Assembly (NCBI GenBank): GCA_037157565.1
Contig: JAZHRO010000022.1
Location: 496,001-560,000, forward strand
From: Thalassia testudinum
Lineage: Eukaryota; Streptophyta; Magnoliopsida; Alismatales; Hydrocharitaceae
DNA length: 64,000 nt
Reading direction: 5' to 3'
A program made the translations under genes and the position numbers. Under the pieces are notes generated by a model. It was not told the origin of the DNA. It saw nothing but the letters and a program-made list of their open reading frames with translations, and did not search any database. Below, one piece after another: positions 1,724-48,170 of this stretch (position 1 is the stretch's first letter; each line of letters starts with the position of its first letter).

Positions 1724-2146
1724 CAGACGTCTGGAACATCTTTCAGACGTCTTAAACGATGGCTCAGGTCATACCTTGTTTCTGCGTGGTCCTTCAGACA
1801 TCCAGAATCCCGTTGAACCGTCTGGACTTAATTTCCAGACGTCCGACTGTCACTCCGAACGTTTGGATACCCTCTCCGCCGTCTGGTGCTGTGCCCAGAC
1901 GTCCGATCTCTGTGGGAGGGAATGCCCTTGCGCCTTCCCGAACGAGACCTGCATGCGTACGCAACCGTCCTTCAACACGAAGACGAGGCAGAACCCTTCG
2001 GCAGAACGGCTGCATGGCCGTACACGCGAAAGAAGAAGGGAAGGAAAATATCGTACCTTTCAGACGTTTGGACCTTCCTCCAGACGTCTCCCTCGTCGTC
2101 TAGACATAGGTCCAGACGTCTGATTCTGGGAAATTTTCCCAGAATC
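1724..2146. repeat. AGACGTCT palindrome cluster in gypsy LTR
   Basis: About nine full or decayed copies of CCAGACGTCTGG (for example near 1726, 1746, 1837, 1897, 2060, 2080 and 2113) at irregular spacing. The cluster ends in an inverted repeat at 2122-2146 with 12-base arms (GATTCTGGGAAA and its complement) around one T. A second small cluster lies at 2577-2640. Confidence 0.8.
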
Positions 2147-2668
2147 AGGACCTCCTCGCCCTCCGCCTGCTGTGCACAGCCGTGCCGCGCTCGCCTGCTG
2201 CCTGAGCTGCAGCAGCTCCTCCCCAGCGCCACGCTCCTGCTGCGCACCCGCCGGCCAGCCCTGGCTGCTCCGGCGAGCTCGCACCCTCGCACTCTAACCC
2301 TTCTCCCTCTCGCTGCAACTCCTCCTCCCCGTGCACTCACGGCAGCAGCTGCTGCCCTCGCCCGCTCACTCTCACGCTAACAGGAAGAAGGAGAAGAAGA
2401 AGGCGGTGGAGTGATGGTGAGGGAGAGGAGAGGGGGTGTATTTGAAGGTGCCACGGGGAGAGAGAGAAAGAAGGCTATTCCTGCAGAGAGGAAAAAAAGA
2501 GAAGAAAGGAGGGCGGCGGTTCAGTCTGCGCGCGCTTGCGCGTAGACGCGAACCCGTACGCCGAAAAAATTAATTTCCAGATGTTTGGGAAGGCTTCCAG
2601 ACGTCTGACCAGACGCCTGGATTGACTCCCAGACGTCTTAAACGGTGTTTGATGCCGGGGTCATAACA

Positions 2669-2911
2669 CCCTCCAACTCGTCCAGTGTCGTGGCGGCTGG
2701 CCTGCCCCACGGAGGACTCCCTCTCCGCATCCCTAGGAAGAGGAGGCTGATGGAGCTCCTCTCGTATGACATCCTGGATCAGCTGGGCGAGATTTGGAGT
2801 CTGAATGCCTGGAAGGAGAGGTGGAGCAGCTCCATCCTCGGCCATCGCTTGCCCTCCCCTGTGACCACGACCACGTCCGCGGCCCGCCTCAAGAGCTCCT
2901 TGGCGAGGCAT
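2669..2911 (-). pseudogene. gag: gypsy gag, N-terminal fragment
   Basis: First ~81 codons of a gypsy capsid polyprotein (gag), read from the ATG at 2911. It starts MPRQGALEAG with an Arg/Gly-rich stretch, then a segment LAQLIQDVIREEL that matches the gag N-termini of the elements at 23349 and 50053. It stops abruptly at 2669 against the LTR end, so the capsid core, zinc knuckle and all of pol are missing. In this position gag would assemble the virus-like particle. The exact junction with an LTR terminus suggests another LTR inserted into this gag rather than a random deletion. Confidence 0.72.
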
Positions 2912-3075
2912 CTCCTGCACGGAGATTGGAAAGAAATGGGATTGATGGTGAATGTTTAGCTACAGAGAAAACGTAAGACTCAGAAATGACAATTAAGGTA
3001 AAATGTTGTGATGGCTATCCTAGCTACATGTATAAGTGTGATGATTTTTGAACTATTTTGTTTATTTCTCGGGAT

Positions 3076-3093
3076 GACCTTGCTCTGATACTA
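3076..3093 (-). promoter_or_regulatory. retrotransposon primer binding site (tRNA-iMet type)
   Basis: On the minus strand this reads TAGTATCAGAGCAAGGTC, one base from the usual plant initiator-Met start TGGTATCAGAGC. It lies just inside the 5' LTR (edge 3097), where minus-strand DNA synthesis is primed. Confidence 0.8.
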
Positions 3094-3096
3094 TCT

Positions 3097-4648
3097 TATC
3101 ACGACCCGAACCCAGATCCCTATAGGACTTGAGACCGGCTCGCCTTGACTAATCCCAAGACCCAGTCGTCCAACAAGAAATAACCAAATAACATACAACA
3201 ATCCACAACCACACAAGTACAGTAGCTAAGCAGAAAGAAAATGGCAACGAAAGGAGAAATAGAACAGTAATTCTAGAAATTACATGCCTTCAAGAACAGG
3301 AATATTGCCATCACAACAGAACTAGTATAGATAGAGAACATAATAGAAAGTGCTGAAAAATATAACTACAGGAACTCACTACAACAAGTAGTAGAAACTA
3401 TAGTTAGGCTCGACTAGGCCCAATGTCTTCAGCAGCCAGTAACTCGGGCTGCTCAAATCCCTGACCTGTACAAAGTTATATAACTGGAGTTAGCTAACGT
3501 TGAGTGAAGTGGCGGTTTAAACATAAATGCATTTACAGGTAATTTAACATATTATTTTCTGATCCAAAATATCCTATAACGGTTTTCTGTGTAGAGATCT
3601 CTAATTAGGGCTCATCTCATTACTTAATCTTCTTATTCCCTAAAGGAACGATTTTGCTTGCAGTTTTCCCGCGATGTAGGATGCACACGTGGCACTCTCC
3701 TGGCCGGGAGAGTCCCTCCGTGGTAGTCCTATACCCGGTCTACAACCCCGAGGTCACGGTCGTGACATAGCGGTGACTACGGCGCATGTAATAAGCACGC
3801 GGGTAGCTACCCCGCACTGGCACGCGGTCAGTCATTTCTGCTAGCGGGTATGCCTCAACGTATAGCGCAGAACTGTATAGGGCCTTGAACGAGCCCAAAA
3901 ATAAGGGTTCTGACAGAAATAAGATGTCTGGGAGAGATCCTAGATGTCTTAAATCAACTCTCAGGCATACCTCTCTCGGGGCGCCTCTATCGGATGTCTG
4001 GAACATAAGGCCAACGTCTAAGGGTTCTGTTAGACGTCTGGAGGTGCTCCTGGACGTCTGAAACTGCCTCGATCCGCCTTCCAACTTCTGACACATATAC
4101 GTACATTGTCAGGACTTGGGTAGAGAAGAAATACGGAAAGTAGATCTCTACTAGACGTCTCATACTACCTTCGGACATCCGGTAAGACGTTTGGATATCG
4201 CTCTGGACGTCTAATTCCGCGGAAAATGACTTCCGCGGAATCTCTTTGGCTTTCCTCGTCGCAGGCGTTGCAGCAGAACAGCATAGCGCCCTTCGCTCTC
4301 GCACTCAAACTCGCGATCAGCTCTCCGCTCTCTGCTCGCTCTCGCTCTGGCTTCCTGCTCTCTCTCTCTCTTCCACTCGGTTGTGGTGGTGTGAGATGGA
4401 GAGCAGGAGGAGGGGGTTTATAAAGGGAGAGGAGGTGAGGGGAGGGGTGTGGCATCGCAGGGAGTGGCGTGGGGTGCGGGCGAGGCCGTTGCAGGGTGAG
4501 GCGTGAGGCATGGGCGAGGGAGTAGCGTGTGCACGGTACGCGTCGAAACGAAAAAGCTTTTTCAGACGTTTGGCTCTCTCTCCAGACATCTGGACAAACG
4601 TTTGGTGAACATCCTAGACGTCATAAAGGACCAAGAGGTGACGGGTCG
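3097..4648 (-). mobile_element. Ty3/gypsy LTR, internally shortened
   Basis: Begins TATCACGACCCGAACCC (TG changed to TA) right after the PBS and follows the family LTR with deletions (about 1.55 kb against about 2.6 kb). It contains the conserved block around 3700-3850, AGACGTCT-type sites near 3940-4210 and 4563-4620, an inverted repeat ATTCCGCGGAA at 4214-4241, and a minus-strand TATA-like TTTATAAA at 4417-4424. It breaks off around 4648 into copia LTR sequence. Confidence 0.8.
4417..4424 (-). promoter_or_regulatory. TATA box of gypsy LTR
   Basis: TTTATAAA preceded on the minus strand by a C-rich leader side. It sits at the place equivalent to TTATATAA at 27192-27199 in another copy, about 220 bases inside the LTR 5' end. 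Confidence 0.5.
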
Positions 4649-5520: not shown

Positions 5521-5521
<1 letters not shown>

Positions 5522-5557: not shown

Positions 5558-5559
<2 letters not shown>

Positions 5560-14359: not shown

Positions 14360-15262
14360 GTAGACCTCAATCCAATTCTAATAAAATCAAATCTTAGTAA
14401 TCAAATGTCTAACCCTATAACCACACAACCTATAAGTTGAAATAAATCGCTTGATCATCCTCTGGGCAATAGTTTCTTTGGAATTAGACAACTTACACTT
14501 TATCAGTCATCTGACTAGACCTCATCAAACGTCTAACTGACTTATTAAATGTATGATACTATATTCTTTGTTGCAAATCCTTTTGTATTCTTTTTTGATT
14601 TTGAGATATATTTATCCTAATCACTTCCAACAACCATAAAACCTTACTCAACCCATCTAGAGTCTTCTTAACACCTCTATAAATACCTCTAGTGGTTTCC
14701 CTTGCTCAACACAACATAAGATGCAATTCTTCCACTCTTATCTACTAGAAGAACACTTGTAAGAGCGATTAAGAGAATTGCTGTACAATCAATGTTCCAA
14801 CTCTATTCCCATTGACCACAACTTGAGCACTCTACATCAGTGATCAAGCACATCATAGAAGATCTAAAAGGAAGTTTTCTCAAACCTATGGAAGAAAGAA
14901 TTTATATTTACCTCGTGGTTTTATAGCATTTTTGTATTTTTCTTTTCTTGTTGTAATTGGCTATCCGACCAGTCGGATCCTCATTTCTTCCCACATGGAA
15001 AGGTTAAACTCTTCAATTGGGATCGGAGAGGGGCTTTGTAATTGACGTACATCACCCTCAATTCAAGTGATGTGGATAGTAGATTGTTGATCGATTGATA
15101 ATCCAAAAATCCTGAGTCAAGAAAGATGTAGGTGGTGGTGTTTACCCTTGGAGGTTTTCCACCTAAAAGTTTCTTGTGTCTTATTTTGTAGTGATTTTAT
15201 TTGTGTATCTATTTTGAATTTCCTTATATTATTTGATTGCACTAATCACCCCCCCTTTAGTG
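14360..15262 (+). mobile_element. copia (SIRE-type) 3' LTR, second part
   Basis: Continues the LTR from 13312. It contains degenerate AAACGTCTAAC/AGACCTC sites (14500-14560), a CTCTATAAATA TATA region near 14677, and the family 3' end with CACCCCCCC at about 15245. The middle aligns with 4649-4895 and with the LTR at 36529-38248. Confidence 0.65.
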
Positions 15263-15843: not shown

Positions 15844-17209
15844 TGTTACAACCTGGTTCCCGAATCCTTACAGGACACCAGATCGGACCGACTCGACTGA
15901 TCCCAAGATCCAGTCGTCCAACGAGAAAGTAACCAAAAAGCAGTAAAATAAACCACATTCACCATGTTAAGCAACTAATAGTAACAAAAGTACAGTAGTA
16001 AAGAAGTAAAACTACTACAGTACACACCACCACAACAGTAGAAAGTAAACGAGTACAGGAATATAATGTGTAGAATGAAAGAGTACAGCATATAAAGGTA
16101 CAAGAAGCTATACACTATTATAAACGAGTACAAAAAGAGCTACAACTACTGGGCTCTACTGGGCCCAGCACATCTGCAGCCGTAGGCTCTGGCTGCTCAA
16201 CACCTGGACCTGAAAAGGGTTATGAGTACACGAAATCAGCGAACGCTGAGTAGAGTGGCAACCAACTAACAAAAGTAGTAAAGGTGGAAAGGTAGTTGTT
16301 GTTTTTCAATTCTTTCTTTCTTTAATTAATTATTCTTTCTTTCACCATTGGGTTTATTTATCAGGTCTCTTTCTTGATCTCGAATGTTCCTCGTGGGAAC
16401 GATCTTGATTGCAATCTTTTTTCGAAGAGTAGAAGTAGCACGTGATACTCCCCTAGCCGAGAGAGTCCCCTGTGGTGATTCTACACCCAGTCAACCACCC
16501 TAAGGTCACGGACAGATGTAACGCTGATTACGGCACGCGTAATAAACGCACGGGTAGCTAACCCGCACTGGCACGCGGTCAGTCGTTTCCGTTAACGGGT
16601 GCGCCCAAAGCACAGCACGGAACAAGTACAGGGCAGAGCCCTCTCAGTAACAGGGGTCCAACCCCTCCACAGTAACCAAACAGGGGCCTTGCCCCTCCAT
16701 AGTCTGCGCACCCTCACCTGACTACCCTGGTTTGCCCCAGTGGGCCTAACAAGTCGGTGTAGGAGGCTAGCAGAACCCCGGGGCCCGTGGGGTAGCTAGT
16801 ACTTCCCTACACTAGTAGCTCTCCTCGGTACTACGTACACGAGGGCTAGCAAGTCGGTACAGAGTGGCCAGTCCTAACCCCGGGTCCCTGGGGCGGCTAG
16901 CTCCGCTCTGCACTAAACAGGGGGACAGTTGCTCTCTTTGGTACTCCGTACTCAAGGGCCAGCTCACTTCCCCAATTCTATTCCATTCACTTTCCAAGAG
17001 TTCTACTCCTAATTCCCTGTAGGGTTCCAGCTCTTTAACTCAGCGCATTCCGGTTTCACCTTTCCAGTTTCACGTTCATACAACCCATATTCTTACTCAT
17101 GTTCATTTATTCATAACAGGCAGCTGTTTAAACAAATTTACAGGCAGCTATTATTTCTTTTCCACATTTTCAAGACTGTAGTGTTCACATATTCCACTAG
17201 TTTTCCCAT

Positions 17210-17345
17210 CCTAGGATTCATGTCATACCCTAGGATCTATCATACAATCTAGTTTTCCAGCCCTAGTATTTATGCAACACCCTAGGATCTATCATTCAAT
17301 CTCGTTTCTCATTCCTAGGATTTATGCAATGTCCTATGTTCTATT
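17210..17345. repeat. 52-bp minisatellite inside gypsy LTR
   Basis: Units start at 17210, 17262 and 17314, each with CCTAG and a second CCTAGGATCT site. Same repeat as at 1309 and 24864. Confidence 0.85.
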
Positions 17346-17633
17346 TATGGTTTCATAATTTAACAGATTATACTTAAAGCCACTCTACCGGTTACAACAG
17401 GAGAACTGGGGGCGTGGTCGGGATTCCTGCGTGCCTCCGCAACCCCCGAGACTGCAACGGAACGGGGTCCTATCACAAGGATCAAACACAAGGAATTTCT
17501 TAAAACAGTATACAACTACTGTAGATGGGTAGAGGATGTAATTACGAAAAGAACGCAACTCGAAATGCGGAAAACGGAACCCGAACGGGCCCTAAACGGG
17601 TCGAAAACGACGAAACAGTGCAAAATCAGATGT

Positions 17634-17990
17634 CTGGAACTTATTCCAGACGTCTTAAAAAGTGGATCAGGGGTTACCTTGCTCTGCGTGGTCTCTAAGA
17701 CGTCCAGAAGCCTGCGGGGGCGTTTGGCCTAGTTCCCAGACGTCCGATGGTCACCCCGGACGTCTGGAAGTCGTTCCCGTCGTCTGGCACTGCAGCCAGA
17801 CGTCTGATTCGCGTTGGATGCGAGTCTCAGAACCTGCGCGTACCCATTTCCTCTCTCTTAGTACGGTCAGTCGAAGAAAACGAAGAAGCGGAAATAACTC
17901 ACATTTCAGACGTCTGGACAGTCTTCCAGACGTCTTCCCCGTCGTCTGGTTGGAATCACAGACGTCTAATTCTGGAAAATTTTCCAGAAT
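17634..17990. repeat. AGACGTCT palindrome cluster plus AT-centred palindrome
   Basis: About ten AGACGTCT-type sites (near 17635, 17648, 17700, 17738, 17758, 17796, 17909, 17926 and 17961). It ends in a perfect 22-bp palindrome at 17969-17990 with half-site ATTCTGGAAAA. A smaller cluster lies at 18420-18490. Confidence 0.85.
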
Positions 17991-18514
17991 CAGGGCGCCA
18001 CTCGCCCTCCGCTTGCGACGCACGGCCGCGGTGCGAGTGCTCCGCCTACTGCTCGAGCTGCAACAGGCCTCCCGCGCCACCCCGCGTCTGCTGCGCCCCT
18101 GTTGGCTGGCTCCCGCTGCCCCGGCAGGCTCGAGCCCTCACGGCTGACGCCTCCTCCCGCACACGCCGCGGCTGTCGCCGCCGCCGCTCACTCGCGCTCG
18201 CTCTCGCGCACCGATTGGAAGGAGAAGAGGAAGGGGGCAGAGGTGACGGGAGTGAGGGGGAGGGAGTGGCCTTTTAAGGCAGCACGAGGAGGAGAGAGAG
18301 AGAGAGCGGGACAGGGTGGTCTGCGGCCGCAGGAGAGGGAAAAAGAGAGGGAGAGAGAGCGTACGCAGGTCTGCGCGCTCAGGCGCGCAGACGAATCGCG
18401 CGTGCCAACAATAACTGATTCCCAGACGTCTGGAAGTGGTTCCAGACGTCTGGTCAGACATCTGGGCCACCTCCCAGATGTCTTAAAAGACATCTGAGGC
18501 GTGCGTTCGTAACA

Positions 18515-18598: not shown

Positions 18599-19711
18599 TC
18601 AAAGAGGACCGAAGCCGGTCCGAAAAGACGTACCCGCGAAGAGCTCCGGGTACCGCTCCCGCATTGCCGCCTCAGGCTCCCAGGTAGGCTCCTCGTATCG
18701 CTGGCTCCTCCACAAAACCTTTACCAGGGGTACTTGCTTCCGTCTCAAACTGCGGACGGCTCGGTCTAGAATCTGCACTGGCCGCTCGGGGTAGGTCAGG
18801 TCGTCGCCCACCTCGACGCTCTCGTGACTCAGTACGTGACTGGGATCGGCTACGTACTTCCTGAGGTTGGACACATGGAACACGTCGTGCACACTAGAAA
18901 GGTGCGGGGGGAGGGCAAGCCTGTAAACAACGGGTCCAACCCGCTCCAGGACCTCAAAGGGCCCCACAAACCTCGGCGCGAGCTTCCCTCTCACCCCAAA
19001 CTGCTGCAGGCCCTTCAAGGGCGAAACACGAAGAAAGACGTGGTCCCCAACCTCAAACTGCACCTCTCTGCGTCTCCGGTCCGCGTAGCTCTTCTGTCTG
19101 CTCCTGACAGTGCGGAGTCGCTTGTGGATCTGCTCGACTACCTCCTGACTCTGCCGGATCAACCTGGGGCCAACCTCCCACTTGGTCCCCACCTCAACCC
19201 AACTCAAGGGTGCCATACACCTTCGTCCGTACAGAGCCTCGTAGGGAGCCATACCGATGCTCGAGTGATAACTGTTGTTGCATGCAAACTCCACTAGGGG
19301 CAGGTGCTCCTCCCAAGAGCCCCTCCAGTCCAGTACACAGGCACGCAAAAGGTCCTCAAGTGTCTGTATCATGCGCTCAGACTGTCCGTCGATCCGGGGG
19401 TGGTAAGCCATACTAAACTTCAACCGCGTCCCCAAGGCCTGCTGAAACTCAGCCCAAAACTGGGACGTAAAGCGGGTATCCCGGTCGGATACGATCTCCC
19501 ACGGATCTCCGTGTAGTCGTACCACATCACGGACATACCTCTCTGCCAACTGTGCTGGACCCAAAGTGACTCGGATCGGCAAGAATCGTGCCGTCTTCGT
19601 CAGTCTATCCACTATTACCCAGACTGCGTCGTGTCCTCGCTGGGTAACAGGTAAGCCCACCACCAAGTCCATGGTGATGCTCTCCCACTTCTACTCTGGC
19701 ACTGGAAGTGG
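18599..19711 (-). pseudogene. pol: gypsy integrase core and chromodomain
   Basis: Reads on the minus strand in the same frame as the upstream pol segments. The core domain has catalytic Asp in MDLVVGLP, the second Asp in IVSDRDTRF, and Glu in HPRIDGQSERMIQTLED; the downstream EALYGRRC block is present. The tail PVQILDRAVRSLR...PLVKVLWRSQRYEEPTWEPE...YPELF is the chromodomain of Tekay/Del-type chromoviruses, thought to direct integration to heterochromatin. A TAG replaces Trp just before KWESITMDLV (near 19692), and another TAG replaces Gln near 19755, separating it from the zinc-binding part. Otherwise open for about 357 codons. Confidence 0.93.
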
Positions 19712-19753
19712 CTGTAGCGGCCCTGCAGGCCTCTGATGCTCGGCTTTCACCTG

Positions 19754-20671
19754 CTAACACACTAAGCACTGCTGCACGAACTCACCCACATCCCGCTTCA
19801 TCCCCCTCCACCAAAACTCGCGTCTCAAGTCGTGGTACATCTTCGTGTTTCCGGGATGTATGGTGAACCTGGAACCGTGTGCCTCAGTCAGGAGCTCTCT
19901 CAACAGCTCCTCGTCTCTGGGAACGCACAACCGTTCCCTCAGGCGCAGCACCTGGTCTGTGAAAGAGAAGTCTCCTGGATCTCCCGACAGTACTCTGTCG
20001 CGCAAGGACTGCAAGTACGGATCGGCCATCTGTCCTGTGATAATGCGGTCTATCAGCTCTGGCCTAGTCTGTCGTGTCACCGTCACAGCCCCACAGTGCC
20101 CCCGTAACTCCAGGGATCGCCAACTACCCACCTCCTCCAAAAGGCTCCAACTCTGTAACTGTAAACTGGCCAAGTGTGCGGGTGCCTTACGGCTCAAGGC
20201 GTCAGCCACCACATTGGCCTTTCCCGAGTGGTAGGAGATGCTGCAGTCGTAGTCCTTCAGGAGCTCCAACCAACGTCTCTGTCTCATGTTGAGCTCCTTC
20301 TGATCAAAAAGGTACCTGAGGCTCTTGTGATCTGTGAAAATTTCAAAGGTCTCATCGTACAAGTAGTGCCTCCAAGTCTTCAGCGCGAAGACAACAGCTG
20401 CCAACTCTAGGTCGTGGGTAGGGTAGGTATGCTCATGGGGCTTCAGTTGCCGCGAAGCGTAAGCGACAACGTGACCCCTCTGCATGAGCACACCTCCTAA
20501 CCCCTGCAAGGAGGCATCCGTGTACACAACGAACCCGCCACTACTGTCAGGGATGGTGAGCACGGGAGCCGAGGTCAACCTCTCCTTCAGCTCCAGAAAA
20601 CACGCCTTACAGGCGTCTGTCCAAGCGAAGGGCACGTCCTTCCGGGTCAACTGTGTCATAGGACGCGCAAT
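19754..20671 (-). pseudogene. pol: gypsy RNase H and integrase zinc-binding domain
   Basis: About 300 codons. RNase [17 protein letters not shown], the ELAAVVFAL helix, FTDHKSL, and VVADALSRK at its end; it would remove template RNA during reverse transcription. It is followed by a linker and the integrase HHCC zinc finger ([12 protein letters not shown] ... FVQQCLVC). A TAG at 20669-20671 lies between RT and RNase H and another follows CLVC, so the polyprotein cannot be made as one chain. The frame is otherwise continuous with 20672-22084. Confidence 0.92.
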
Positions 20672-22084
20672 CTATGAAAAACCTCTGTTGAATCGTCTGT
20701 AGTAGCCTGCCAGTCCCAGGAAACTGCGAATCTCAGTGACTGAACGCGGTCTCTCCCACCTGAGTACTACCTCGACCTTGGCTGGGTCCACCGCCAAGCC
20801 GTCTCCGGAGATCACATGACCTAAGAAGGTCACCTCCCTCAACCAGAACTCGCACTTGCTGTATTTGGCGTACAGCCTACGTCGTCTCAGAGTGTCCAGA
20901 ACCATTCGCAAGTGCTGTCCGTGCTGCGTCTGATCTCGAGAATAGATGAGTACATCATCTATGAAAACCACCACGAACTGGTCCAAGTAAGGTCTAAACA
21001 CCCGGTTCATCAGATCCATGAAAGCAGCGGGCCCAAACGGCATGACCAACAACTCGTAGTGTCCGTACCCGGTGCGGAAAGCTGTCTTGGAGACGTCGGT
21101 CTCCCTGATCCTCAATTGGTGGTATCCCGACCTCAAGTCGATCTTGGAAAACACCGTGGCACCCCGCAACTGGTCAAATGGGTTGTCGATCCTCGGCAGC
21201 GGATATCTGTTCTTGATGGTGACCCTATTCAGCTGTCGGTAGTCCACACAAAGGCGTAAGGTCCCATCCTTCTTCTTCACAAACAGTACCGGGGCTCCCC
21301 AGGGAGATGCACTGGGCCTCACGAAACCTTTCTCCAAAAGGTCCTGCAACTGAGACTTGAGCTCTCGTAGCTCAAGCGGTGCCATCCTGTATGGCGCAGT
21401 GGAGATGGGGCTAGTCCCTAGTACTAGTGAGATCTCAAACTCGATCTCACGCTCGGGCGGTAGTCCTGGTAACTCGTCTGGAAACACGTCAGGGTACTCT
21501 CTGACCACCGGGATGCTCTGGAAGTCTGCCACAGGGCTGGGCTCTGCCACCACACAAGCTAGGAAACCCTCACACCCCTGGCTCAAAAGTCTCGCCGCCC
21601 GAAGTGCCGAAATGCACCTGAAACCTCCGTCCACTGGCTGTCCGTGAAACTCGAAAGAAGGCAATTCCGGAATGGAGAAGAATATTTTCCTCTCAAAACA
21701 GTCCACCAAGGCATGGTAAGCGGACAGCCAATCCATCCCCAGAATCACTCCAAAGTCTTCCATCTGTATCATAATCAGGTCAGCTGGTAGGCTATGTCCC
21801 CCGACGCTGACCTCGCAATCCGTGTACACATCCTCAGCTACAAACAGCTGACCACTCGGACCTCTGATTACGAACGGATTCTCTAACAGTGTAAAATCCT
21901 GGTCCAAACTAACTGCGAAACTGGCTGCGACAAACGAATGTGTAGCGTTGGAATCGAAAAGCGTGTAAACGAGTCTGCCGGAAACTGAAACCATACCTGC
22001 TACCACCGATCCTAAAGCTCTGGCGTCCCTGTGTGTCAGGACGTTGATACGCCCTTCAGCTCTAGGTGCGGACGAAGCAGCCAC
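20672..22084 (-). pseudogene. pol: gypsy protease and reverse transcriptase
   Basis: About 470 codons. Protease: the active-site motif normally reads DSGA but here is [10 protein letters not shown], so the catalytic loop glycine is lost; the plus-strand copy at 51317 keeps DSGA. Then a linker with [71 protein letters not shown], catalytic [10 protein letters not shown], and the thumb [19 protein letters not shown]. Four residues are missing after MPFG (reads [11 protein letters not shown], usually LTNA first). This is the best-preserved pol part in the window, but with these lesions it is unlikely to be active. Confidence 0.94.
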
Positions 22085-22505
22085 ACTCTGCGTTCGGACG
22101 GGTAGGTGCTGGCCGGTACCCTCCTCGTGACTGCTGTCCTCTTCGCACTTGGTAACCGCGGCCTCCTGCGCGTCCTCCAGTGCTTTGCGCGGGAAGTATC
22201 TGCTGACCTCCTACCCTAGACGGGCAGTCCCTCCTGATGTGGCCCGGCTGGCCACACTGGTAACAGAGGGGAACCCGACTCCCGCCCTCAGTGGGTCCCT
22301 GCTGTCGGCTGGGCGGGGGTCCGGTGCTGGCGACTAGCCCCTGTCGAGAGCCCCCAAAGGCCACTGATGGCGCTGTAAAACGTGACGGCTCTCCTGCGGA
22401 CGCCACGTGTCTCCTCTCTCGCCGGCCCTGTGAAAAGTCTGGCTGAAATGGCCTCTTTCGCCCGCCGTCAGTGTCTCGCGCGGACGGGTTGGTCTCCTAG
22501 TAAAG
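22062..22505 (-). pseudogene. gag: gypsy gag C-terminus with zinc knuckle
   Basis: Nucleocapsid part with CYQCGQPGHIRRDC (CCHC zinc knuckle, about 22259-22300), which binds the element's RNA. It is in a frame different from both the gag N-part and pol. Compared with the plus-strand copy at 50890, one extra T near 22502 shifts gag into this frame, and a one-base loss near 22090 shifts again into pol. In the plus copy knuckle and protease share one frame, so the ancestor had a single gag-pol frame. Confidence 0.85.
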
Positions 22506-24998: not shown

Positions 24999-25205
24999 TT
25001 ATGGTTTCATAATTTAACAGATTATACTTAAAGCCACTCTACCGGTTACAACAGGCGAACTGGGGGCGTGGTCGGGATTCCCGCGTGTCTCCGCAACCCC
25101 CGAGACTGCAACGGAATGGGGTCTTATCACAAGGATCAAACATAAGGAATTTCTCAAAACAGTATACAACTACCTTGCTCAAAACAATTTCTCACAAGGA
25201 TCAAA

Positions 25206-25573: not shown

Positions 25574-26111
25574 AGGGCGCCACTCGCCCTCCGCTCGCGA
25601 AGCACGGCCGTGGTGCGAGTGCTCCGCCTGCTGCTCGAGCTGCAGCAGGCCTCCCGCGCCACCCTGCGTCTGCTGCGCCGCCGCCTACTGGCTCCCGCTG
25701 CCCCGGCAGGCTCGAGCCCTCACGGCCGACGCCTCCTCCCCCGCGCAGCACCTCCTCCCGCACCCGCCGCGGCTGTCACCGCCGCTGCTCACTCGCGCTC
25801 GCTCTCGCGCACCGACTGGAAGGAGAAGAGGAAGGGGGCGGAGGTGACGAGAGAGAAGGGGAGGGCGTGGCCTTTTAGGCCGCGCGAGGAGGAGAGGAGA
25901 GTGGGACAGGGTGGTTTGCGGCCGCAGGAGAGAGGGAAAAAGAGAGGGAGAGAGAGCGTACGCAGGTCTGCGCGCTCAGGCGTGCAGACGAATCGCACGT
26001 GCCAACAATAACTGATTCCCAGACGTCTGGAAGTGGTTCCAGACGTCTAGTCAGACGTCTGGGCCACCTCCCAGATGTCTTAAAAGACATCTGAAGCGCG
26101 CGTTCATAACA

Positions 26112-27400
26112 ATTCAATACAGACAATCCAGTATTTCTAATCCTAGGATTCATGACATATCCTAGATTCTAATCATTCATTCCACACATGCAATTAGGTT
26201 GTAATTAAATTAAGGAGAAGCCACTCTACCAGTAAACCCAGGAGTAGTGGGGGCTTGATCGGCAGGTCCACGTGCCTCAACAAACCCCAAACCCGTAACG
26301 GAACGAGGTCCTATCACAAGGATCAATCACAAGAGACAACTCAGAATAGTATAGAAAGTATTCCAACAAGTAGGGGAAAACATACAGGAAACAACGGTAT
26401 CTTAATTGCGGAAATCGGACCTCAAACGGACCCTAAACGGGTCAAAAACAGTAATTTTGACTCAAATCAGACATCTGGAACACCTTCCAGACGTCTTAAA
26501 AGAGTCCTGAGCCATACCTCAAGTCCTACACCACTCCTCAGACGTCCAGGAACTCCGCTGGATCATCTGGACCCAGTTCCAGATGTCCGACCACCTCTCC
26601 GGACGTCTGGAAATGCTTCCCGTCATCTGGTGCCTCACCCAGATGTCCGAACTGTGTGGGAGGGCGTGTCCTGCACCTTCCTGAAGCAACCTCTATGCCA
26701 ATCAAGCGAAATCTTCTCAATAAGGCACGAAACAGCGCCTCGGCGGAACGGCCTGCATGGTCGTATCCGCAAAGGAGACGTATGTTCGCGAAGCTTACCT
26801 CTCAGTTGTCTGGAACCTCCTCCAGACATCGGCTATGTCGTCTGAACGTCGCTCCAGATGTCTGATTCTGGGAAAATCCCAGAACCAGAACCTACTTCCG
26901 CCTTCTCGCGCCGCGTGTGGCCGCGCCACGCCCTCTTGCCTGCTACTCCAGCTGTAGCAGTGTCGGGGAGGGTCTCCCCGACGCACTCCTTTGCCTTACG
27001 CACATGCTGATCGGCCGTGAGCTCACTGGCGAGCTCCCATGCGAGCTTGCAAGCCTTCTCTCCTCTCCTTCTCACGCTGCTCCTCCTCTCCTCTCACGCT
27101 GCTCCTCTCCGCCATTCGTCGCTCGGTTGTTCTCACTGGAGGGTAGAGGAAGGTGGCTGGGAAGTGGGTGAAATGAGGGAGAGGAGGGGGGGTTATATAA
27201 GGTGTGGGGTTAGGGTTTTCGTTGGGCGAGAGGAGAGAGAAGGAGAAGAAAATGAGGGACGCGTACTGTCTGCGCGCAGCACGTGCGTAGACGCGAGCTT
27301 GTACACGAAAATTTCGATTTCCAGACGTCTGGGAAGGTGTCCAGACGTCTGACCCAAGTTCCAGATGTCTTAAAAGGCTCAGATAGTACGGGTCTTAACA
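26112..27400 (-). mobile_element. half of a second gypsy LTR
   Basis: Starts inside an LTR at the minisatellite region (one CCTAGGATTCATGAC unit), runs through the leader and AGACGTCT sites (26467-26860, 27322-27372), and ends ...GGTCTTAACA at 27400 followed by GAAGG (27401-27405), the partner of the duplication before 15844. It is a more diverged subfamily than 23532-26111. It is best read as the right half of an older LTR into which the gag-pol element jumped. Confidence 0.8.
27192..27199 (-). promoter_or_regulatory. TATA box of gypsy LTR
   Basis: Minus strand TTATATAA in a C-rich context, about 200 bases inside the LTR 5' end. Clear match to a plant TATA box; other copies carry decayed versions here. 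Confidence 0.6.
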
Positions 27401-33811: not shown

Positions 33812-34449
33812 TGTAGATCCTTACAGGAGAGGGTGAGATTTGCGGGATAAAAGAAAAGTGCGGAAATATAAAATCAATCTCACAAAAAGAACAATCACAC
33901 AATGCACAAGTGATTTTTAGGTGGAAATCCAAACCAGGTGAAAACTACCACATAACCCTCTCGAGTTAGGATTTTCCGATCGACAAAGTCAATCAAAATC
34001 CACTAACCCAGTCACTTAAACGAGGGCGACTGAACTTCAATACAACAACACTACTTTGAACGAGGGTAGTGTGCCTCAAATCCCTCCTCTTCACGAGAAA
34101 GATTTTGTCCCTCGATGGAAATGGGAATTCGTAACGCGAATACCTAACTAATAAACAAAGATAAATTACAAGGCAAACTTATAGAACCACAAAGTATAAA
34201 ACCTAGCTTCTATAGGTAAAGATTATTTCCCTTTGTTGGATGTGCATCGACTTGACACGGTTGCGTGAACCACTCGGAGGCACTTTGTCACTCCCGTAAC
34301 TGCGAAGGGAGAGTGGGTACGTGACAACGATGAAGCTCTCTTGAAGTGGAACAAAAGCTTGGAGAGTTAGAGCTTCTTCTACTTCTCTTGAACACAAAAG
34401 ATGTGGAAAATGTGTTGCTTGGTGTGTCTTGACAAGGAAAAGGTACTCC

Positions 34450-34457
34450 TATTTATA
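34450..34457 (-). promoter_or_regulatory. TATA box of copia LTR
   Basis: Minus strand TATAAATA within CCCTCTATAAATAGG, same context as 37588-37595 in the sister LTR. Confidence 0.8.
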
Positions 34458-34566
34458 GAGGGCTTAGGAAGGCTTTGGAAGGCCTTGGAAGGCTTCCATA
34501 GCCGTTGGGGTTCATCCAAGGCAAGGCAAGCCGAAATCATAATCATTAATGATTCTGACAGGGTCA

Positions 34567-35090
34567 TCAGATGTCTGGGAAAAAGATAAGAAGTCTGGAA
34601 ATCACTCTTAAGATGTCTGGGAACTAAGTTAGACGTCTAATTCTAAATGGGTTCCCTTACTGACTTTCATCAGACCTAAATAAGGTTCTAGTGTAAACCA
34701 ATCAGACGACGTACAGGATGTCTGACACTAGGTCTAAACGTCTAGAAACCTAATTAAGTTAAGAATGGATTCTAAAGAGCCTAAACGGCTATAATCCTCA
34801 AGACAAGTGATTTCAGTTCAATCGAGGCTCAACGGTCACATATCAGACATCTGGGGTCCTCTACGGACGTCTGATATAAGCCTAAAGGTCATTTTCCTCA
34901 ACGGTTACTTTGTTAGCCAACGTTCCACTAGTTGGACGTCTGGCACAACCATCAGACGTCTTCTAAGACGTTTGGACTAAGGTTTGGATGTCAGATTTCA
35001 ACAGATAGAACCTACCAAGTCCAACCTAAGTTATTGGACGTCTGAGTCAACAGTCAGACGTCTTAAAAGTCAAGATTAGACATCTGATCA
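34567..35090. repeat. AGACGTCT palindrome array, copia LTR promoter
   Basis: About 14 sites, many decayed to AGATGTCT, AGACATCT or GGACGTCT (for example 34569, 34611, 34631, 34845, 34864, 34933, 34953, 35036, 35055 and 35077). The array starts about 110 bases upstream of the TATA box. Confidence 0.85.
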
Positions 35091-35486
35091 AGCTGTCTGA
35101 AACCTATCTTAATTTTCTAAGTTCTCTAAGAAAACCTAAGTATCCTAGGGTCCGGCAGGTGTTCTTAAGACTACTTTGAGGGTACTTTGAGGCTCTTTAA
35201 CATGCTACTAAGAAAGAAAATAAAGAGTAACAAATAACAAAGTGCATTGAATAAGAAAGGAAATCTATCATATTATTTATCTCCTTCCTTTTTCAAGCTT
35301 TTGCTCCTTGTGAAGCTCCTTCTCCGTCAAGCTCCTCCAATCCACCACGAACACGAGCTCAAACTCTGTCTTTACACTTGTTTCCATTTGCAATTTGACC
35401 TGAAAGCTATGACTTAAAAGCTAATGTTAAATAACAAGCGTTTCGTTATCATCAAAATAAACGATAGTGGTGCTCTAGCACCAACA

Positions 35487-35945
35487 AAGAGGACCACTCT
35501 ACCAAGGTAAACAGGAGATGTGAGGGCACGAACGACAGACCACATAGCCCCCACAGGTCTCGTGCGCACCACGAAGGGATGCCCTATTCAAAACGGTTGG
35601 TCAAACTAGATATTAATACTTTGACTAATGTTTCCTCAAGTCAAAACTAGCTTAAAATAGTGGGTAAATGATCTCAACACATAGGAAAATCCGACAGAAG
35701 GCCAACGATACTTCGTTTGAGAAAAATCAACTTCATTTGGGTCCTTAACCAACCCAAACACCCTTCCCGGTTCACCTAAACTGAACCAGGCAGGCTGGTC
35801 TAGCTGGATCGGCCGCCTGATGCCTGAAGTAAGGAAATCAGACCAATATCAGACGTCTGGGGTGAGTCCCAAACATCTTAAAAGTAAGCAGAATCCTCAC
35901 CTTGCTCTTTGTGTCTGTTTCCGATGTCTGAAACCCCTCACAGTT
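35487..35945 (-). mobile_element. gypsy LTR, piece 2 of 3
   Basis: Resumes with GACCACTCTACCAAGG, matching GCCACTCTACC at 1488 and 17385, and continues into the AGACGTCT region (35853-35930). Cut at 35946 by the SIRE-type relic. Confidence 0.75.
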
Positions 35946-36528: not shown

Positions 36529-36936
36529 TGTTGGTGCTAGAGCACCACGATCATTTGTTTTGATGATAACAAAACACGTGTATTTAACATTTGCAATTTG
36601 AGTCCTAGATTTCAGGTCAATTGCAAATGAGGACGTGTTTAGATGGAATTCGAGCTCGCATCCAGGACGGATTGGAGGAGCTTGACGGAAAACAAAGGAG
36701 GTTCGCGTGGAGCGAAAGATTGGAGATGGAAGACAAGAAGAATAGGATAGATTCTTTTTTATCCTTTCATGTATCTCTTGTATTTATTTTCTTGCTCTTT
36801 TTGATTCCTTAGAACATTATGTTAAAGAGCCTCAAAGTACCCTAAAAGTAGTCCTAGGAACACCTGCACAACCCTAGGATACTTAGGTTTTCTGTAGAAT
36901 ACCTAGAAAACCAATATAGGGCTCAAACAACATTTC

Positions 36937-37478
36937 CAGACGTCTAATCCCAAAATCAGACGTCTGATAAAGTATTTTAAGACGTCTGACTGTTGTTTCA
37001 GACGTCTGATAACTGTTAGGCTGGACTTAGTTTTCTGTCTGATGAAATCAGACGTCCAGACCTTAGTCCAGACGTCTTAGAGGACGTCTGATGGACTTGC
37101 CAGACGTCCAGATAGTGGACCGTTGGCTAATTTAGCGAGCACGGCAGAATATGACCGTTAGAGCCTTATCAGACGTCCATAGGACTGTCCAGACGTCTGA
37201 TAAATGACCGTTTTGCCTCGACTGACCCAAAATCTCTTCTCAGAGATTTTCTAGCCGTTGCAACGTTTGGAAATCAATTCCCACGGTAAAAGTAGGTTTC
37301 CAGATGACCAGACATAATGCCAGACGTCCTGTATGTCGTCTGATGGACTTGCACAAAAACCCTGTTTAGATTTGATTCAAGTCAGGGAGAAACCCGCATA
37401 GAATCAGACGTCTGACCTTGAGATCAGACGTCTTAAAGTGGCCTTCCAGACGTCTCATTCCAGAGTTAGACGTCTGAT
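36937..37478. repeat. AGACGTCT palindrome array, copia LTR promoter
   Basis: About 15 copies in 540 bases, many exact CAGACGTCTGA or CCAGACGTCT. Spacing is irregular (roughly 15-130 bases), and unique sequence lies between, so it is not a simple tandem repeat. The array ends about 110 bases upstream of the TATA box. Confidence 0.93.
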
Positions 37479-37587
37479 GACCCTGTCAAATGTAATCATT
37501 GTCCTGATTTCGGCCTGATTCTCTTGGACTTTGTTCCCAACGGCTATAGAACCTTTCCTAAGCCTTCTAAAGCCTTCCTAAGGCCTC

Positions 37588-37595
37588 TATAAATA
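37588..37595 (+). promoter_or_regulatory. TATA box of copia LTR
   Basis: TATAAATA inside CCTCTATAAATAGAGG, followed about 30 bases later by the likely transcript start. Good match to plant TATA promoters. Confidence 0.85.
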
Positions 37596-38248
37596 GAGGG
37601 GAACCTTTGCAACACAAAAACACACAAGATATACACTTAGAAACACCAAGAGACACCTTGTAATACACTCTCACACTCTTGTGTCCAAGAAGCTCTTGCT
37701 CTCTAAGCTCAAGCTCCATCATCTTGAGAGCTAAATTCAGTTTGCGCGCCCGCTCTCCCGCTGTTGTTCACGAGAGCGACGTAGCGCCATCGCGTGGCAC
37801 ACGCACCGCGTCATCGTCGACGCACTCCTTGCAAAGGGGAGTTTCCTATTTCCTATAGAAGCTAGGTTTAATTTTGTTGGCTCTATAGGACTGTTGTTTT
37901 ACTTTATCTTTGTATTTTGGTTGGGTATTCGCTTTGCGAATTCCCGTCTCCTTCGTGGGACAAAATCCTTCTCGTGGAGAGAAGGGGTTGAGGAACGCTA
38001 CCCTCGTACTTGTAGCGTGGTTGTACTGAGGTTGAATCACCCTCGTTTAAAGTGATTCGTTTAGTGGATTTTGATCAACTTGGTTGATCGGAAAATCCTA
38101 ACTCGAGAGGGTTAGGTGGTGGTTTTCACCCGGTTTGGGTTTCCACCTAAAAATACCTGTGTACATTGTGCGATTGATTTTTGAGATTGCTTTATATTTT
38201 TATTTCCGCAATTTTATTACGTCACCCCTCCTGGTAGGGAAACCTTCA

Positions 38249-38945
38249 GTTGGGACGTCTACTAGACGTTGGGGTTTAAATCCCAACGTTCATATAGCCA
38301 AAATTAATTTTCTAGCCATTCAGTTTTGAGCCAACATCTACCTGGTACCGGTACTAAAGTATGGGTACAGGTACTCGTTGCTTCCAGATTTGGGTTTCAA
38401 ACTCTTAACACAAATCTGTAACCCACTTGTACCGGTACTCATGGTTAGTACCGGTACTCGTTACCTCCAGTACCGGTACTGATCATGAGTACCGGTACTC
38501 GCTGGGTACAGGTTTGTTTCTTGACAAAACCCAAACCTGTAACTCACATGTACTGGTACTAAACTTTAGTATTGGTACTTGTGGGTTAACAAGTACCTTT
38601 TTTAAGTGATTTAATCAATTACGTTCTTTAAAAATGATTGCAATATTAATCCTAATTTATCTCTAATTATTTTTATGATCTAAGTTATATTCCCTTGTTA
38701 AGAGGCATACAATCTATAAATATAAAATATAAACTAGAGAAACTAAGGTCGAAGATGATCTTCTCCTCGTTGATTCTTCCTTGTCATCTTGCCTCATTCT
38801 TATCATGATCTTCTCCTTTTCATCAAGCCTCCATCATTTCCTGTTTGCCTTGATCTTCACCTAAATTTGAAAGAACTCAATTACAAACATTAATCCATAA
38901 TAATTTTGTTAACACCAAAACAAGATGTGGAACAAGGTTCCAACA
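38249..38945 (-). mobile_element. SIRE-type 3' LTR, second part
   Basis: Continues the LTR after the solo-LTR insertion and ends ...GGTTCCAACA at 38945 (minus-strand LTR start TGTTGGAACC). The part 38408-38945 recurs at 40199-40708, the 5' LTR remnant. Carries the GTACCGGTAC array. Confidence 0.82.
38341..38600. repeat. GTACCGGTAC palindrome array in SIRE-type LTR
   Basis: About nine copies of the 10-bp palindrome GTACCGGTAC or near forms (GTACAGGTAC, GTACTGGTAC), often followed by TCATG or TCGTT. In minus reading it lies upstream of the TATA box at 36503, the same place as the AGACGTCT array in the related LTR. Confidence 0.85.
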
Positions 38946-38960
38946 ATCTCCTCCTTTTTG
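38946..38960 (-). promoter_or_regulatory. polypurine tract
   Basis: Minus strand CAAAAAGGAGGAGAT immediately before the LTR start TGTTGGAACC. Typical of the SIRE/Maximus lineage; it primes second-strand synthesis. Confidence 0.85.
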
Positions 38961-40198
38961 GTGTTGACAAAATTATCTTGCAAATAGACAATTATAAGAA
39001 TAAAAATAATTTTTAACAATGTTATATAAAAAAAAATTTTAATTAAATCCTCCCCCTAAATATATTATCCTCCAAAAAATATTACTATTTACCCTCTATC
39101 TTTCTCCCCCTTTTTGTCAATCACAAAAAATGAAGAAATATCATACCATAAAATTTACCAATAGTAAAATGGAGCTTGAGGATACCAAGCATCTCTTGTC
39201 CAACATTCTTGGTCTTCATTTAACCTATAGAAAGGTTGAAGTATTTCGTTATGTGCCTTGAACATTCATTGATTACTTTGATCTACTCCTGCAAAACAAA
39301 TATTTTTTCTAGGTACCTATTTTCTTGTTGGTCCTTGATGGTTAGTACCTTTCAAATCCTTAGATTTATAGATCACTTTAGTGTTAGATCTATAATTCTT
39401 AGGATTCTTGACCTTTTGATAAATCCATGCATGTCTAGGTGCATGTAATTGATTTTGTGTGTTCTTCTTATTATTGAACTTACTTTTAAATTATTACAAA
39501 ATTCCGTATTCAGCTAGTTGTTTTTAAATTATTCAAAGTGTCCTCAAAGTGTTCATAAATATCTTCTAATTCTACTATTTTTGCATGTAATTGATTGTTA
39601 GTTTCTTTGGACATATCTAATTTTATTTCTAAACAAGATTTCTCTATTTCTAGAGTTCTATAATTATCATGCAAAACCTTATTTTTCTTTTTAATCATCC
39701 TAGCCTTATTATATAAATCTTCATATGCTTGTACTAATTCATTAAAGGTGATTTCAGAATCTACCTAATTTTCCGAGTTGTCATTGTTTGCCATTAAGCA
39801 AAGATGTGCAACTTCTGTTTCTTCATATTCTTCGGAAGACGATTCCGTGTCGGAATCACTATCATCCTAAGTTGCCTTGTATGCCTTTCTTGAAATCTTC
39901 TTTTTCTTTCAATCGAGTTCTTTGTCCTTCTTTTCTTCCTTCTTCTTCTTAATCATTGGACAATCTTTTCATACGTGCCCCTTCTTCTTGCACTCAAAAC
40001 AAATAATGTCATTTGAAAATTTATTGACTTTCTTAACTTGTTTTCGGATGAATCTTCTGAATTTTCTTATTAGAAAAGCAAGCTCCTTTCCTTCGTCGGA
40101 ATTGGAGTTATCAAAGTCCGATACCTCCTTTAAAGCTTTGAAAGTGAGCTCATTTTACTTGCTTATGGATTTTTCTTCATTCTTCTTCATATTTTCCA
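38961..40198 (-). pseudogene. gag: SIRE-type gag remnant, pol deleted
   Basis: Minus strand. Coding signal runs from about 40190 down to 39200 through several stops: a lysine-rich helix region, the zinc knuckle CFECKKKGHV-KDC at 39960-40001 (a TGA replaces the usual Arg codon inside it), an acidic DSDSDTESSSEEYEE stretch, then coiled-coil-like LVQAYEDLYNKARM and the frame 39510-39698. The last readable part has CFAG and GPTRK, as at the gag-pol border in this lineage. Protease, integrase, RT and RNase H are all absent: the DNA passes straight to the polypurine tract. Confidence 0.82.
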
Positions 40199-44521: not shown

Positions 44522-44529
44522 CCCACAAG

Positions 44530-46005: not shown

Positions 46006-46013
46006 CCCACAAG

Positions 46014-47184
46014 TGCTCTTCCAATGTAACCTGCAAGAGCCCTTGGAGTGAATCCCTCAACACCCCAAGAAGCTCCAACTCTATCATCTTATGCTCTAAA
46101 AGGTAGAATGCTTAAATAAGCCGAAGTCTTACTAGCTCTAGCTCTTGACAACAGCTCGTTCATATGCGAAAATCTAGGCACCACACTATGCATCTTTGCT
46201 TGAAAATCACTCACAAGGTAGGGATAAGCCAAGTGGTCCAATAGACACATAATTCGTGTGCTAGCAAATGCAATAGGTGGTGTGTGCATGTGAATACTAA
46301 TGATGAAACAAAGGCATCCCATTTCCACACTTCATAAACTACTAATTGGTTAACTAGTCTTTTAAGTTATTGTACTTTCACTTACCACACAAGGTCTTCA
46401 CATACTAGAATCATCCCTCCTTAAGGAAGGTAATTTTGATGTATCCTTTTTGCTTGCCTCCATGGTACTACGAGTCCATCCTTGATCAAGGAGGAGACAA
46501 CACATACTCATGACCCTTGAGTAAGGAGATCCATCTCAGTACATGGGAGTGTTGTTGACTTGTTGTTGGATGAGTTGGGCCATATGGAAGCTATTCTCAA
46601 CTAATTCCTCAAAACCTAAAGGAGTTAACTCAAGTTGATCTCAATTGAGTGTAGGTTTGCAATCCTTTCAATACCTTTATCAGCAGAATCATTACCCCCT
46701 TGAGTTTATTAACTCAAATCTTAGGCTATTAGCATTTATATCCATTTGACCTAAGGTTCTTAAACATCCATTTCCTCATCTCAACCTTCCATAGGTGGAT
46801 TAGATTAAGGTCAATCCAAGGCTGACTATTTCTTAACCTTAGTGAGGGTTAAAACATCATTAATAAACCCTAGATTTCAATCATTTATAGGATGTTTGAT
46901 GTTAATTAATCAATACCTAATGTTAGTTTCTTCATTTGGATCCTTCCTAAGACATTCAATATTCAATAGCAAAAATTCTAACGTTAGCTGTCAAAACTAA
47001 CATTTAATTTTAATAACTAAAGAGTTAATTCTTCACGAATTAACAGTAGTTTGTCTTAACAAAATATTTTTAGCATGCATGATCTGTAGGAACTATTACC
47101 ATGTTTGTATGAAAAATGGTTCATACATATCATAAGCTTTACTCCTGATGCGCAAAAAATTTGCAAAGATAAAGTTTTAAAATC
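46014..47184. other. unassigned spacer
   Basis: AT-rich with short open frames only (for example minus 46089-46328). No repeat or gene recognised. It is the left flank of the plus-strand gypsy insertion. Confidence 0.4.
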
Positions 47185-47366
47185 ATCGTTGAAATGACCC
47201 ATCGCTCTTTGCTTAGAGTGTTCACCAGACGTCTGTGCAGACATCTGGATAGAAGGTAGGACATTTGAAAGTAGGGAGAACCATACGTTCTCTTGCTTTT
47301 TGCGCGCATGCGTCGCGCATACGTTTTTCCCCCTCCGACCCCCTTACTAAAACCCTAATCACCATC

Positions 47367-47374
47367 TATTTAAA
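47367..47374 (+). promoter_or_regulatory. TATA-like box of gypsy LTR
   Basis: TATTTAAA followed by a C-rich stretch, about 180 bases from the LTR start, equivalent to 27192-27199 in the minus-strand copy. Confidence 0.5.
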
Positions 47375-47795
47375 CCCCCACACACCCACGCCACCCTCTC
47401 CACCAGCTACTGCCACCTCCATCTTCTTCCCCTTGTTGGCGACCATCTTTCATCATCGCCCCTTTGCCGTGAGCGAGCAAGGGTGTGAAGGAGAGAGGGA
47501 GAGAGTATGAGCGAGGGCATGAGAAAGAGGGGAGACCTCACAGGAGCTCGTGCGTGAGGAGTGCCTTGTTGCGGGTGCGACGGCGCGAGCTCGGTGGAGC
47601 TCGGGGGGAGGAGCTCGAGAGCTCGAGCTGGAGGAGCTCGGCAGTGCGAGGAGAGGAGTCGTGCGAGGAGGAGGAGCTCGCCAAGGGGAGCTTCGCAACC
47701 TCTTGAGGCTGCTGGCGTAGCAGCTGCAGGTGAGGCGGAGTCCGCGTGGAGAAGAAGACTCGCGAGAGAGTTCTGCGAGCAGACCTGCCCAATAT

Positions 47796-48170
47796 TAGAT
47801 GTCTGGAGCATCGGCCAGACGTCTGGAGCAGCAGCGGGACGTCCGGAGCTAAAGCCGGACGTCTGAAAGCATGTTTAGTGCCGAGGTACGTGTTTCTACA
47901 CGGGGTCCAGCCATGCAGATGGGACCCTTAGCTGATGTTGGGTCTGTGCGTTGGAAAGGCGTGCAGTGCGCCCTTCGAGGTGCTTTTGGACGTCTGAGCA
48001 GATCGCTAGATGTTTGACTATACTCTTGGACGACCGGAAGGAGAGTCCGACGTCTGGGACTCACCTCAGACGATCGTGGAAGGATCTGGACGTCCGAGGA
48101 AGTCATAGAAAACACAGGGTGAGTTCTGACATCTTTTAAGACGTCTGGGACTAGCCCCAGATGTTTGATT
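47796..48170. repeat. AGACGTCT palindrome cluster in gypsy LTR
   Basis: About ten sites, including CCAGACGTCTGG near 47816 and forms GGACGTCCGG, GGACGTCTGA, AGACGTCTGGG. In the transcribed leader of this plus-strand LTR. Confidence 0.8.

Follow-up and report, generated by a model that had tools for sequence, protein, structure and literature searches.

LTR retrotransposons and palindrome arrays in the window

The window analyzed here, 64,000 nucleotides of Thalassia testudinum DNA (contig JAZHRO010000022.1, positions 496,001 to 560,000), looks like nuclear plant DNA full of nested long terminal repeat (LTR) retrotransposons. LTRs of two superfamilies, Ty3/gypsy and copia, carry clusters of one palindromic word, and within these clusters 12-bp palindromes are set in pairs exactly 20 bp apart. 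The original prediction had placed clusters of the word in a series of gypsy and copia LTRs; we found sites at each of these places, and the exact 20-bp pairing is an addition to that prediction, which held the word only. The palindromic 8-mer AGACGTCT occurs 43 times in the 64-kb window against 0.55 expected (100 shuffles, the largest count being 4 and none reaching 43), and is the most frequent palindromic 8-mer of the window, followed by ATATATAT with 20 copies, mostly from one microsatellite. With up to 2 mismatches allowed, CCAGACGTCTGG occurs 64 times against 1.66 expected from shuffles. Sixty-three of the 65 sites within 1 mismatch of CAGACGTCTG lie inside the LTR arrays, ten stretches that total 7184 bp or 11% of the window. 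Site calling allowed as many as 3 mismatches to CAGACGTCTG; the 3-mismatch calls are at chance level window-wide (156 raw calls versus 152 per Markov sequence), and of the 153 that were retained 45 fall in the arrays. The arrays and their elements are listed below; in the gypsy LTRs, array 1 lies upstream of the promoter and array 2 is the downstream cluster.

1723..2123, minus strand: gypsy LTR C3, array 2, paired palindromes
2577..2640, minus strand: gypsy LTR C3, array 1, spacing 20-12-20, ending 131 bp before the TATA-like TCAAATACA at 2445 (picked by eye)
3920..4214, minus strand: gypsy LTR C5, array 2
4562..4625, minus strand: gypsy LTR C5, array 1, spacing 20-12-20, last site with 3 mismatches, ending 137 bp before TTTATAAA at 4424
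14503..14536, plus strand: third copia-group LTR, J, weak pair of sites with 2 mismatches each, 22 bp apart
15851..18512 (borders approximate), minus strand: 3' LTR (A3) of Ty3 element A, from self-alignment, arrays at 17626-17969 and 18422-18497
18599..22770, minus strand: internal region of element A, with gag, protease, reverse transcriptase (RT), RNase H and integrase pieces in Ty3 order (Pfam, nothing mended)
23531..26112 (borders approximate), minus strand: 5' LTR (A5) of element A, arrays at 25206-25551 and 26019-26094
26467..26865, minus strand: gypsy LTR D, array 2
27321..27372, minus strand: gypsy LTR D, array 1, ending 121 bp before TATATAA at 27199
33812..35486, minus strand: copia (Sirevirus-type) solo LTR G, array at 34567-35100 ending 108 bp before CTATAAATA at 34458, C-rich stretch at 33825-33836, target-site duplication CTCTT/CTCTC
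35849..35931, minus strand: gypsy LTR fragment I, between copia LTRs, one 20-bp pair and a third site
36529..38248, plus strand: copia (Sirevirus-type) solo LTR H, array at 36936-37477 ending 109 bp before CTATAAATA at 37587, C-rich stretch at 38222-38232, target-site duplication GTTGG
38344..38579, minus strand: LTR array of Sirevirus-like element K, made of GTACCGGTAC, paired at a distance of 19 bp, the pairs being separated by 22 bp; the other LTR copy is at 40212-40344
38906..38970, minus strand: inner LTR junction of K, with a GGAGGAG tract, AT/TG attachment and inverted-repeat arms TTGTCAACACCAAAA and TTTTGGTGTTAACAA
40729..41022, minus strand: LTR-like stretch E with an array, gypsy-like in layout only, orientation inferred from a minus-strand TATA-like box near 41347
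47225..47248, plus strand: gypsy LTR F, array 1, two abutting palindromes, ending 117 bp before TATTTAAA at 47366
47795..48168, plus strand: gypsy LTR F, array 2

Element A is a Ty3/gypsy element by the order of its pol domains on the minus strand (RVP_2, RVT_1, RNase H, Integrase_H2C2/rve in Pfam). For the chromodomain that marks the integrase C-terminus of chromoviruses there is a candidate match (Chromo, E 2.9e-5, 24.3 bits, just below the curated cut-off of 25.1), and just inside its 5' LTR, at 23517-23525, lies a sequence like a primer binding site, TATCGGAGC, with one mismatch, a short pattern that is not enriched in the window. A protein search gave, in the best 120 of 7937 matches, Ty3-type proteins at 45-71% identity, the named ones coming from many flowering plants. 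When 14 LTR stretches were compared all against all with the sites masked, C3, C5, D and F each matched A at E 5e-28 or better, and fragment I matched LTR F (E 3e-7), marking it as gypsy-derived. E, which the original prediction had listed as gypsy at 40728-41025, matched none of the 13 other stretches at E 0.05, so that only its layout gives it a gypsy label. Five clusters beyond those predicted (2577-2640, 18422-18497, 26019-26094, 27321-27372 and 47225-47248) occupy the 5' part of gypsy LTRs, close to the LTR start and ahead of the TATA-like box.

On the copia side, strong arrays were present in both predicted LTRs, G and H, which are two solo LTRs in opposite orientation; with the sites masked they group with J, whose pair had rightly been called weak. 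H has 15 sites with up to 2 mismatches, starting 408 bp after the LTR start, and G has 12. Both LTRs have a C-rich stretch (TCACCCCTCCT, ending 16 bp before the LTR end, and TCACCCTCTCCT, ending 12-13 bp before it, by a simple pattern with 11 other matches) that may correspond to the conserved poly-C-rich signal of Sireviruses, for which the published mean distance from the LTR 3' end is 21 bp. The junction inverted repeat of Sireviruses, between polypurine tract and LTR, has its right arm ~28 bp inside the LTR; in the solo LTRs there is a candidate for the right arm only, TTTTGATGATAACAA in H, 29 bp after the LTR start, and TTTTGATGATAACGA in G. G and H are likely, but not proven, to be Sirevirus LTRs. 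Element K (~36.0-40.7 kb, minus strand, with solo LTR H nested inside it) resembles a Sirevirus in four features: the polypurine tract, the AT/TG attachment, the inverted repeat and a gag knuckle. This knuckle-like CFECKKKGHV*KDCP, seen in a three-frame view, contains a stop that was not mended, and the matches to coiled-coil families (39513-39764) are weak and below the cut-off.

Site geometry, position and conservation

The repeat unit of the arrays is two 12-bp palindromes exactly 20 bp apart, that is, with an 8-bp spacer. Among neighboring sites 20 bp is the dominant spacing and 12 bp, at which the 12-mers abut, is the second. With sites of up to 2 mismatches and distances of 8-60 bp, the exact 20-bp spacing was found in 24 of the 66 site pairs of the gypsy-type LTRs (three of the 24 in LTR E) and in 12 of the 30 of the copia-type LTRs; moving the positions by up to 15 bp gave means of 1.2 and 0.7, respectively, and none of 2000 trials matched the observed number in either group. 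As a duplicate of A5, A3 was excluded when spacing and pairs were tested; LTR E was taken as plus strand in the information-profile and pair/jitter tests and as minus strand from the conservation and folding analyses onwards, and fragment I was grouped with copia in the initial spacing listing and with gypsy in all later analyses. The 12-bp spacing is also above jitter for strict sites in gypsy LTRs (5 found; 6 of 1000 trials reach this) and, once 3-mismatch sites are added, in both groups (11 gypsy and 6 copia; 0 of 1000). A composite 20-12-20 arrangement occurs in gypsy LTRs (2577-2640 and 4562-4625) and in copia (37049/37069/37081/37101), and copia LTR H also uses 20-22-20. The 22-bp link between pairs was seen in copia arrays only, and ladders of 40 and 60 bp in gypsy-type arrays only. 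Tandem Repeats Finder reported 20-bp periods in three arrays (36956, 40967 and 47797).

The arrays hold a similar place in both groups. On the gypsy side, an array ends 117-143 bp before the TATA-like box in six LTRs (A3, A5, C3, C5, D and F, where A3 and A5 belong to one insertion), and in the copia LTRs G and H the array ends 108-109 bp before CTATAAATA. The array of K, with the nested solo LTR H left out, ends about 105-107 bp before its TATA box.

Site information is maximal at the central GACGTC and declines towards the edges, and the 8-bp spacer between paired sites is roughly random, except for its first two bases, which are purine-rich in gypsy; this profile suggests a recognition site rather than a hairpin. 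In all arrays pooled, the outer dinucleotide is CA in 183 of 306 site arms and CG in 19. Between gypsy LTR families, site positions are conserved at 0.82 versus 0.50 for other bases in array 1 and at 0.76 versus 0.48 in array 2, and between the copia LTRs G and H at 0.87 versus 0.67 elsewhere, although consensus-based site calling inflates these between-family figures somewhat. In contrast, the two LTRs of insertion A, which were identical at insertion, show 0.94 for both sites and other positions. The excess between lineages but not within this insertion points to constraint in active lineages and not to low mutability.

Outside the sites, the two groups share no likeness that we could detect. 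The site matrices of 83 gypsy-type and 33 copia sites correlate at 0.97, all sites having been selected by likeness to one consensus. Copia against gypsy LTRs gave 244 blastn matches unmasked and, with the 12-mers masked, 11 matches at chance level (best E 0.07); in the all-against-all comparison of the 14 masked stretches no gypsy-copia pair on the same strand was found at E 0.05. Across groups, similarity of the 8-bp spacers does not exceed that of shuffled spacers (2.62 versus 2.67 +/- 0.08), whereas between different gypsy LTR families, which have 0.30-0.62 identity outside the sites, it does (3.09 versus 2.71 +/- 0.08). The all-against-all comparison of G and H spacers, intended as a positive control, showed no excess, contrary to expectation (2.69 versus 2.77 +/- 0.19). 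As predicted, then, the LTR sequences between sites do not align across superfamilies, and neither masked blastn, the spacers nor the all-against-all comparison revealed a single block joining copia and gypsy arrays.

Several other features of the gypsy elements were noted. Splice-donor-like GGTAA, GGTATG or GGTGAG lies near the last palindrome pair in A3, A5, C3, C5, D, F and fragment I (approximate positions 17678, 25258, 1775, 3971, 26518, 48118 and 35901), and an acceptor-like AG, found by eye, stands ahead of a GAGCAGCC stretch in A and C5, within the 3' half of their LTRs; these signals possibly bound an intron within the gypsy LTR leader. A separate palindrome of the type GATTCTGGAAAATTTTCCAGAATC, also seen by eye, opens array 2 in several gypsy LTRs (17968-17991, 25550-25573, 2122-2146 and ~26864-26886). 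The gypsy LTR 3' half holds a 52-bp minisatellite based on CCTAGGAT (1308-1443, 17197-17344 and 24851-24998). A second gypsy element, on the plus strand at 49773-52351, consists of gag-like sequence and protease followed by a 3' LTR from ~52371, leaving no room for RT or integrase; it apparently suffered an internal deletion that also took the array part of its 3' LTR.

Proposed binding sites and rival explanations

We give a probability of about 60% to the reading that the palindromes are cis-regulatory LTR-promoter arrays for one putative host DNA-binding factor used by both superfamilies. A putative host protein would bind each ~12-bp palindrome (YCAGACGTCTGR) as a dimer, two dimers would cooperate at sites ahead of the TATA box that lie 20 bp apart, near two helical turns, and their cooperative binding would govern transcription of the element. 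Both the Ty3/gypsy and the Sirevirus-type copia elements of this plant would then rely on one factor, each having accumulated arrays of its site. This DNA-level reading fits best because the information peaks at GACGTC and the spacer is near-random in sequence but fixed in length, as with cooperative dimers. That one type of binding site would serve both LTR groups is well supported, since the word, the 20-bp pair spacing and the place upstream of a TATA-like box recur in both. We considered bZIP C-box, ARF and SMAD-like half-sites and adopted none of them. In viral contigs, a match to the pair pattern came from one contig (L001; 66% GC, without AGACGTCT) and was judged unrelated; an RT search there yielded no relative, as none of the 8 stretches that fit an RT search pattern encodes one.

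A number of results count against the binding-site reading. The 12-bp spacing that recurs in gypsy is no whole number of helical turns, and for strict sites in copia it is not above jitter (2 found; 80 of 1000 trials reach this). The TATA-like boxes were picked by eye, some gypsy ones (C3, A) are poor, and E was left out of the distance measurement; moreover, the second array of the gypsy LTRs lies 3' of the TATA-like box and is surplus to a simple upstream-activator view. As solo LTRs, G and H have no internal region, so that their copia label comes from LTR features, and with the sites masked their LTR starts match Sirevirus K weakly (E 0.006 for H and 0.011 for G). The array of K is built from a word other than AGACGTCT, and all results come from one 64-kb window. 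Finally, at the RNA level, folding of eight arrays showed strong structure in every one (z -4.3 to -12.1 against 60 shuffles per array), Watson-Crick matching of paired sites is above shuffles (519/732, reached by 47 of 5000 shuffles; for non-overlapping pairs 430/600, reached by 58 of 4000 within-element shuffles), and within-site symmetry shows no excess over shuffles.

The RNA-level results are what would be expected if the arrays worked as RNA (or cruciform) hairpins, in which adjacent palindromes pair for RNA-level steps or small-RNA triggering, as proposed for maize Sirevirus palindromes. With the 20-bp spacing, the stems would be 12 bp and the loops 8 nt long, and clusters of Sirevirus palindromes are reported to have small RNAs mapping to them (PMC10760457). 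We nevertheless consider hairpins unlikely: strong folding is expected from many self-complementary words, the excess of complementarity between paired sites is gone once G-U pairs are counted (658 of 4000 shuffles reach the observed value), and sites spaced by 12 bp have no loop. Besides, complementarity would suffice for a hairpin and would not require the identical word in unrelated LTRs, and information peaks at the palindrome center and not over the whole stem. It is far more improbable still that the arrays are a functionless by-product of mutation, with short tandem duplication spreading one palindrome in the LTRs. This would account for the 20-bp periods of Tandem Repeats Finder, but paired sites are no more alike as tandem copies than shuffled ones, the sites are much better conserved than other positions between lineages only, and one word is present in two superfamilies.

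As to the origin of the sites, a promoter module may have passed between the superfamilies by recombination of nested or co-packaged elements, its spacers having been randomized since. The word, the pairing and the position are alike in both groups, and the window has LTRs of gypsy and copia type nested next to each other, with the site-bearing gypsy fragment I between two copia LTRs. Such a transfer appears rather doubtful to us, as flanks and spacers keep no leftover cross-group likeness even though gypsy families retain spacer similarity at their level of identity, and as the 22-bp link and the 40/60-bp ladders are each confined to one group. We slightly prefer independent recruitment, because there is no residue of a common block; an old transfer could look identical. 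The original prediction of one host-factor site, recruited independently or transferred, is partly supported: the shared type of site holds well, and either origin may apply.

The array of K bears on how far the binding-site reading might be generalized. Its word GTACCGGTAC is arranged as 19-22-19 in both LTR copies, compared with 20-22-20 in H, so that the geometry of the arrays looks constrained and the word variable between lineages. A possible, if still somewhat doubtful, extension is a swappable promoter syntax, in which dimer sites, paired at a distance of two helical turns and placed directly ahead of the TATA box, would be read in both superfamilies by one host or element-encoded (possibly anti-silencing) protein family, and only the word would change by lineage (AGACGTCT or GTACCGGTAC here, CGG-CCG types elsewhere).

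Comparison with known systems

To our knowledge, palindromic arrays of this kind have not been described in the LTRs of Tekay/Del-like chromoviruses, the plant Ty3/gypsy elements that element A resembles in its protease-RT-RNase H-integrase order and long LTRs; this lineage is a candidate assignment only. Nor did Ty3/gypsy LTRs with this array, or palindrome pairs at a fixed spacing, turn up in the open literature searched, mostly at the level of listings, and for CAGACGTCTG and AGACGTCT no plant-LTR title was among the matches listed.

Palindromic arrays are, however, a documented feature of Sireviruses, which the original prediction did not mention. Sirevirus LTRs hold, in their upper part, clusters of palindromic repeated motifs that start 200-400 bp past the LTR start and precede the TATA box, which were described as Sirevirus-specific among the Ty1/copia elements studied (Bousios et al. 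2010, PMC2829016). The copia arrays described here resemble them in copy number, place and symmetry: G and H, with 12 and 15 sites, exceed the minimum of 8 palindromic copies, and their arrays sit in the upper LTR and precede the TATA box. The repeated motif of the Sirevirus Usier, GTCGGACGTCCGAC (PMC2829016), and TCAGACGTCTGA here are separated, over the inner 12 bases, by a single transition in each arm, at CpG. Twelve of the 13 published motifs have a CGG-CCG core, that of Tnd-1 being without it, whereas the core is mostly CAG-CTG here, and a fixed pair spacing does not appear in the sections of that paper drawn on for this comparison (PMC2829016). Furthermore, the same word and spacing are present here in the Ty3/gypsy LTRs A3, A5, C3, C5, D and F and in fragment I, and so are not confined to Sireviruses as in that description (PMC2829016).

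A precedent for sharing across superfamilies comes from maize, where the palindrome CACCGGACNNNGTCCGGTG is reported to be, in copia elements and in Helitrons alike, the motif found most often in structured regions (PMC10760457). The likeness is that of one palindrome common in two transposable element superfamilies of one genome; in maize, though, the partner is a Helitron and not Ty3/gypsy, the motif is treated as RNA structure, and the parts of the report considered here give no pair geometry (PMC10760457). The heat-responsive elements of COPIA families, among which the strong ONSEN site arose when a proto-site was duplicated (Pietzenuk et al. 2016, PMC5059998), are likewise clustered host-factor sites in the LTRs of several distinct families. 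They differ in that the type of factor, heat shock factor, is known, the motif is another one, and the families are all copia (PMC5059998).

If the binding-site reading is true, rival element lineages would depend on one host regulator, and should other plants show the same geometry, sequence alone could serve to recognize LTR promoters and to group their regulators. The 2010 description could name no common factor that binds the repeated motifs (PMC2829016); a fixed spacing, a word shared by two superfamilies and a nearly identical geometry for a second word would together provide a precise probe for finding it.

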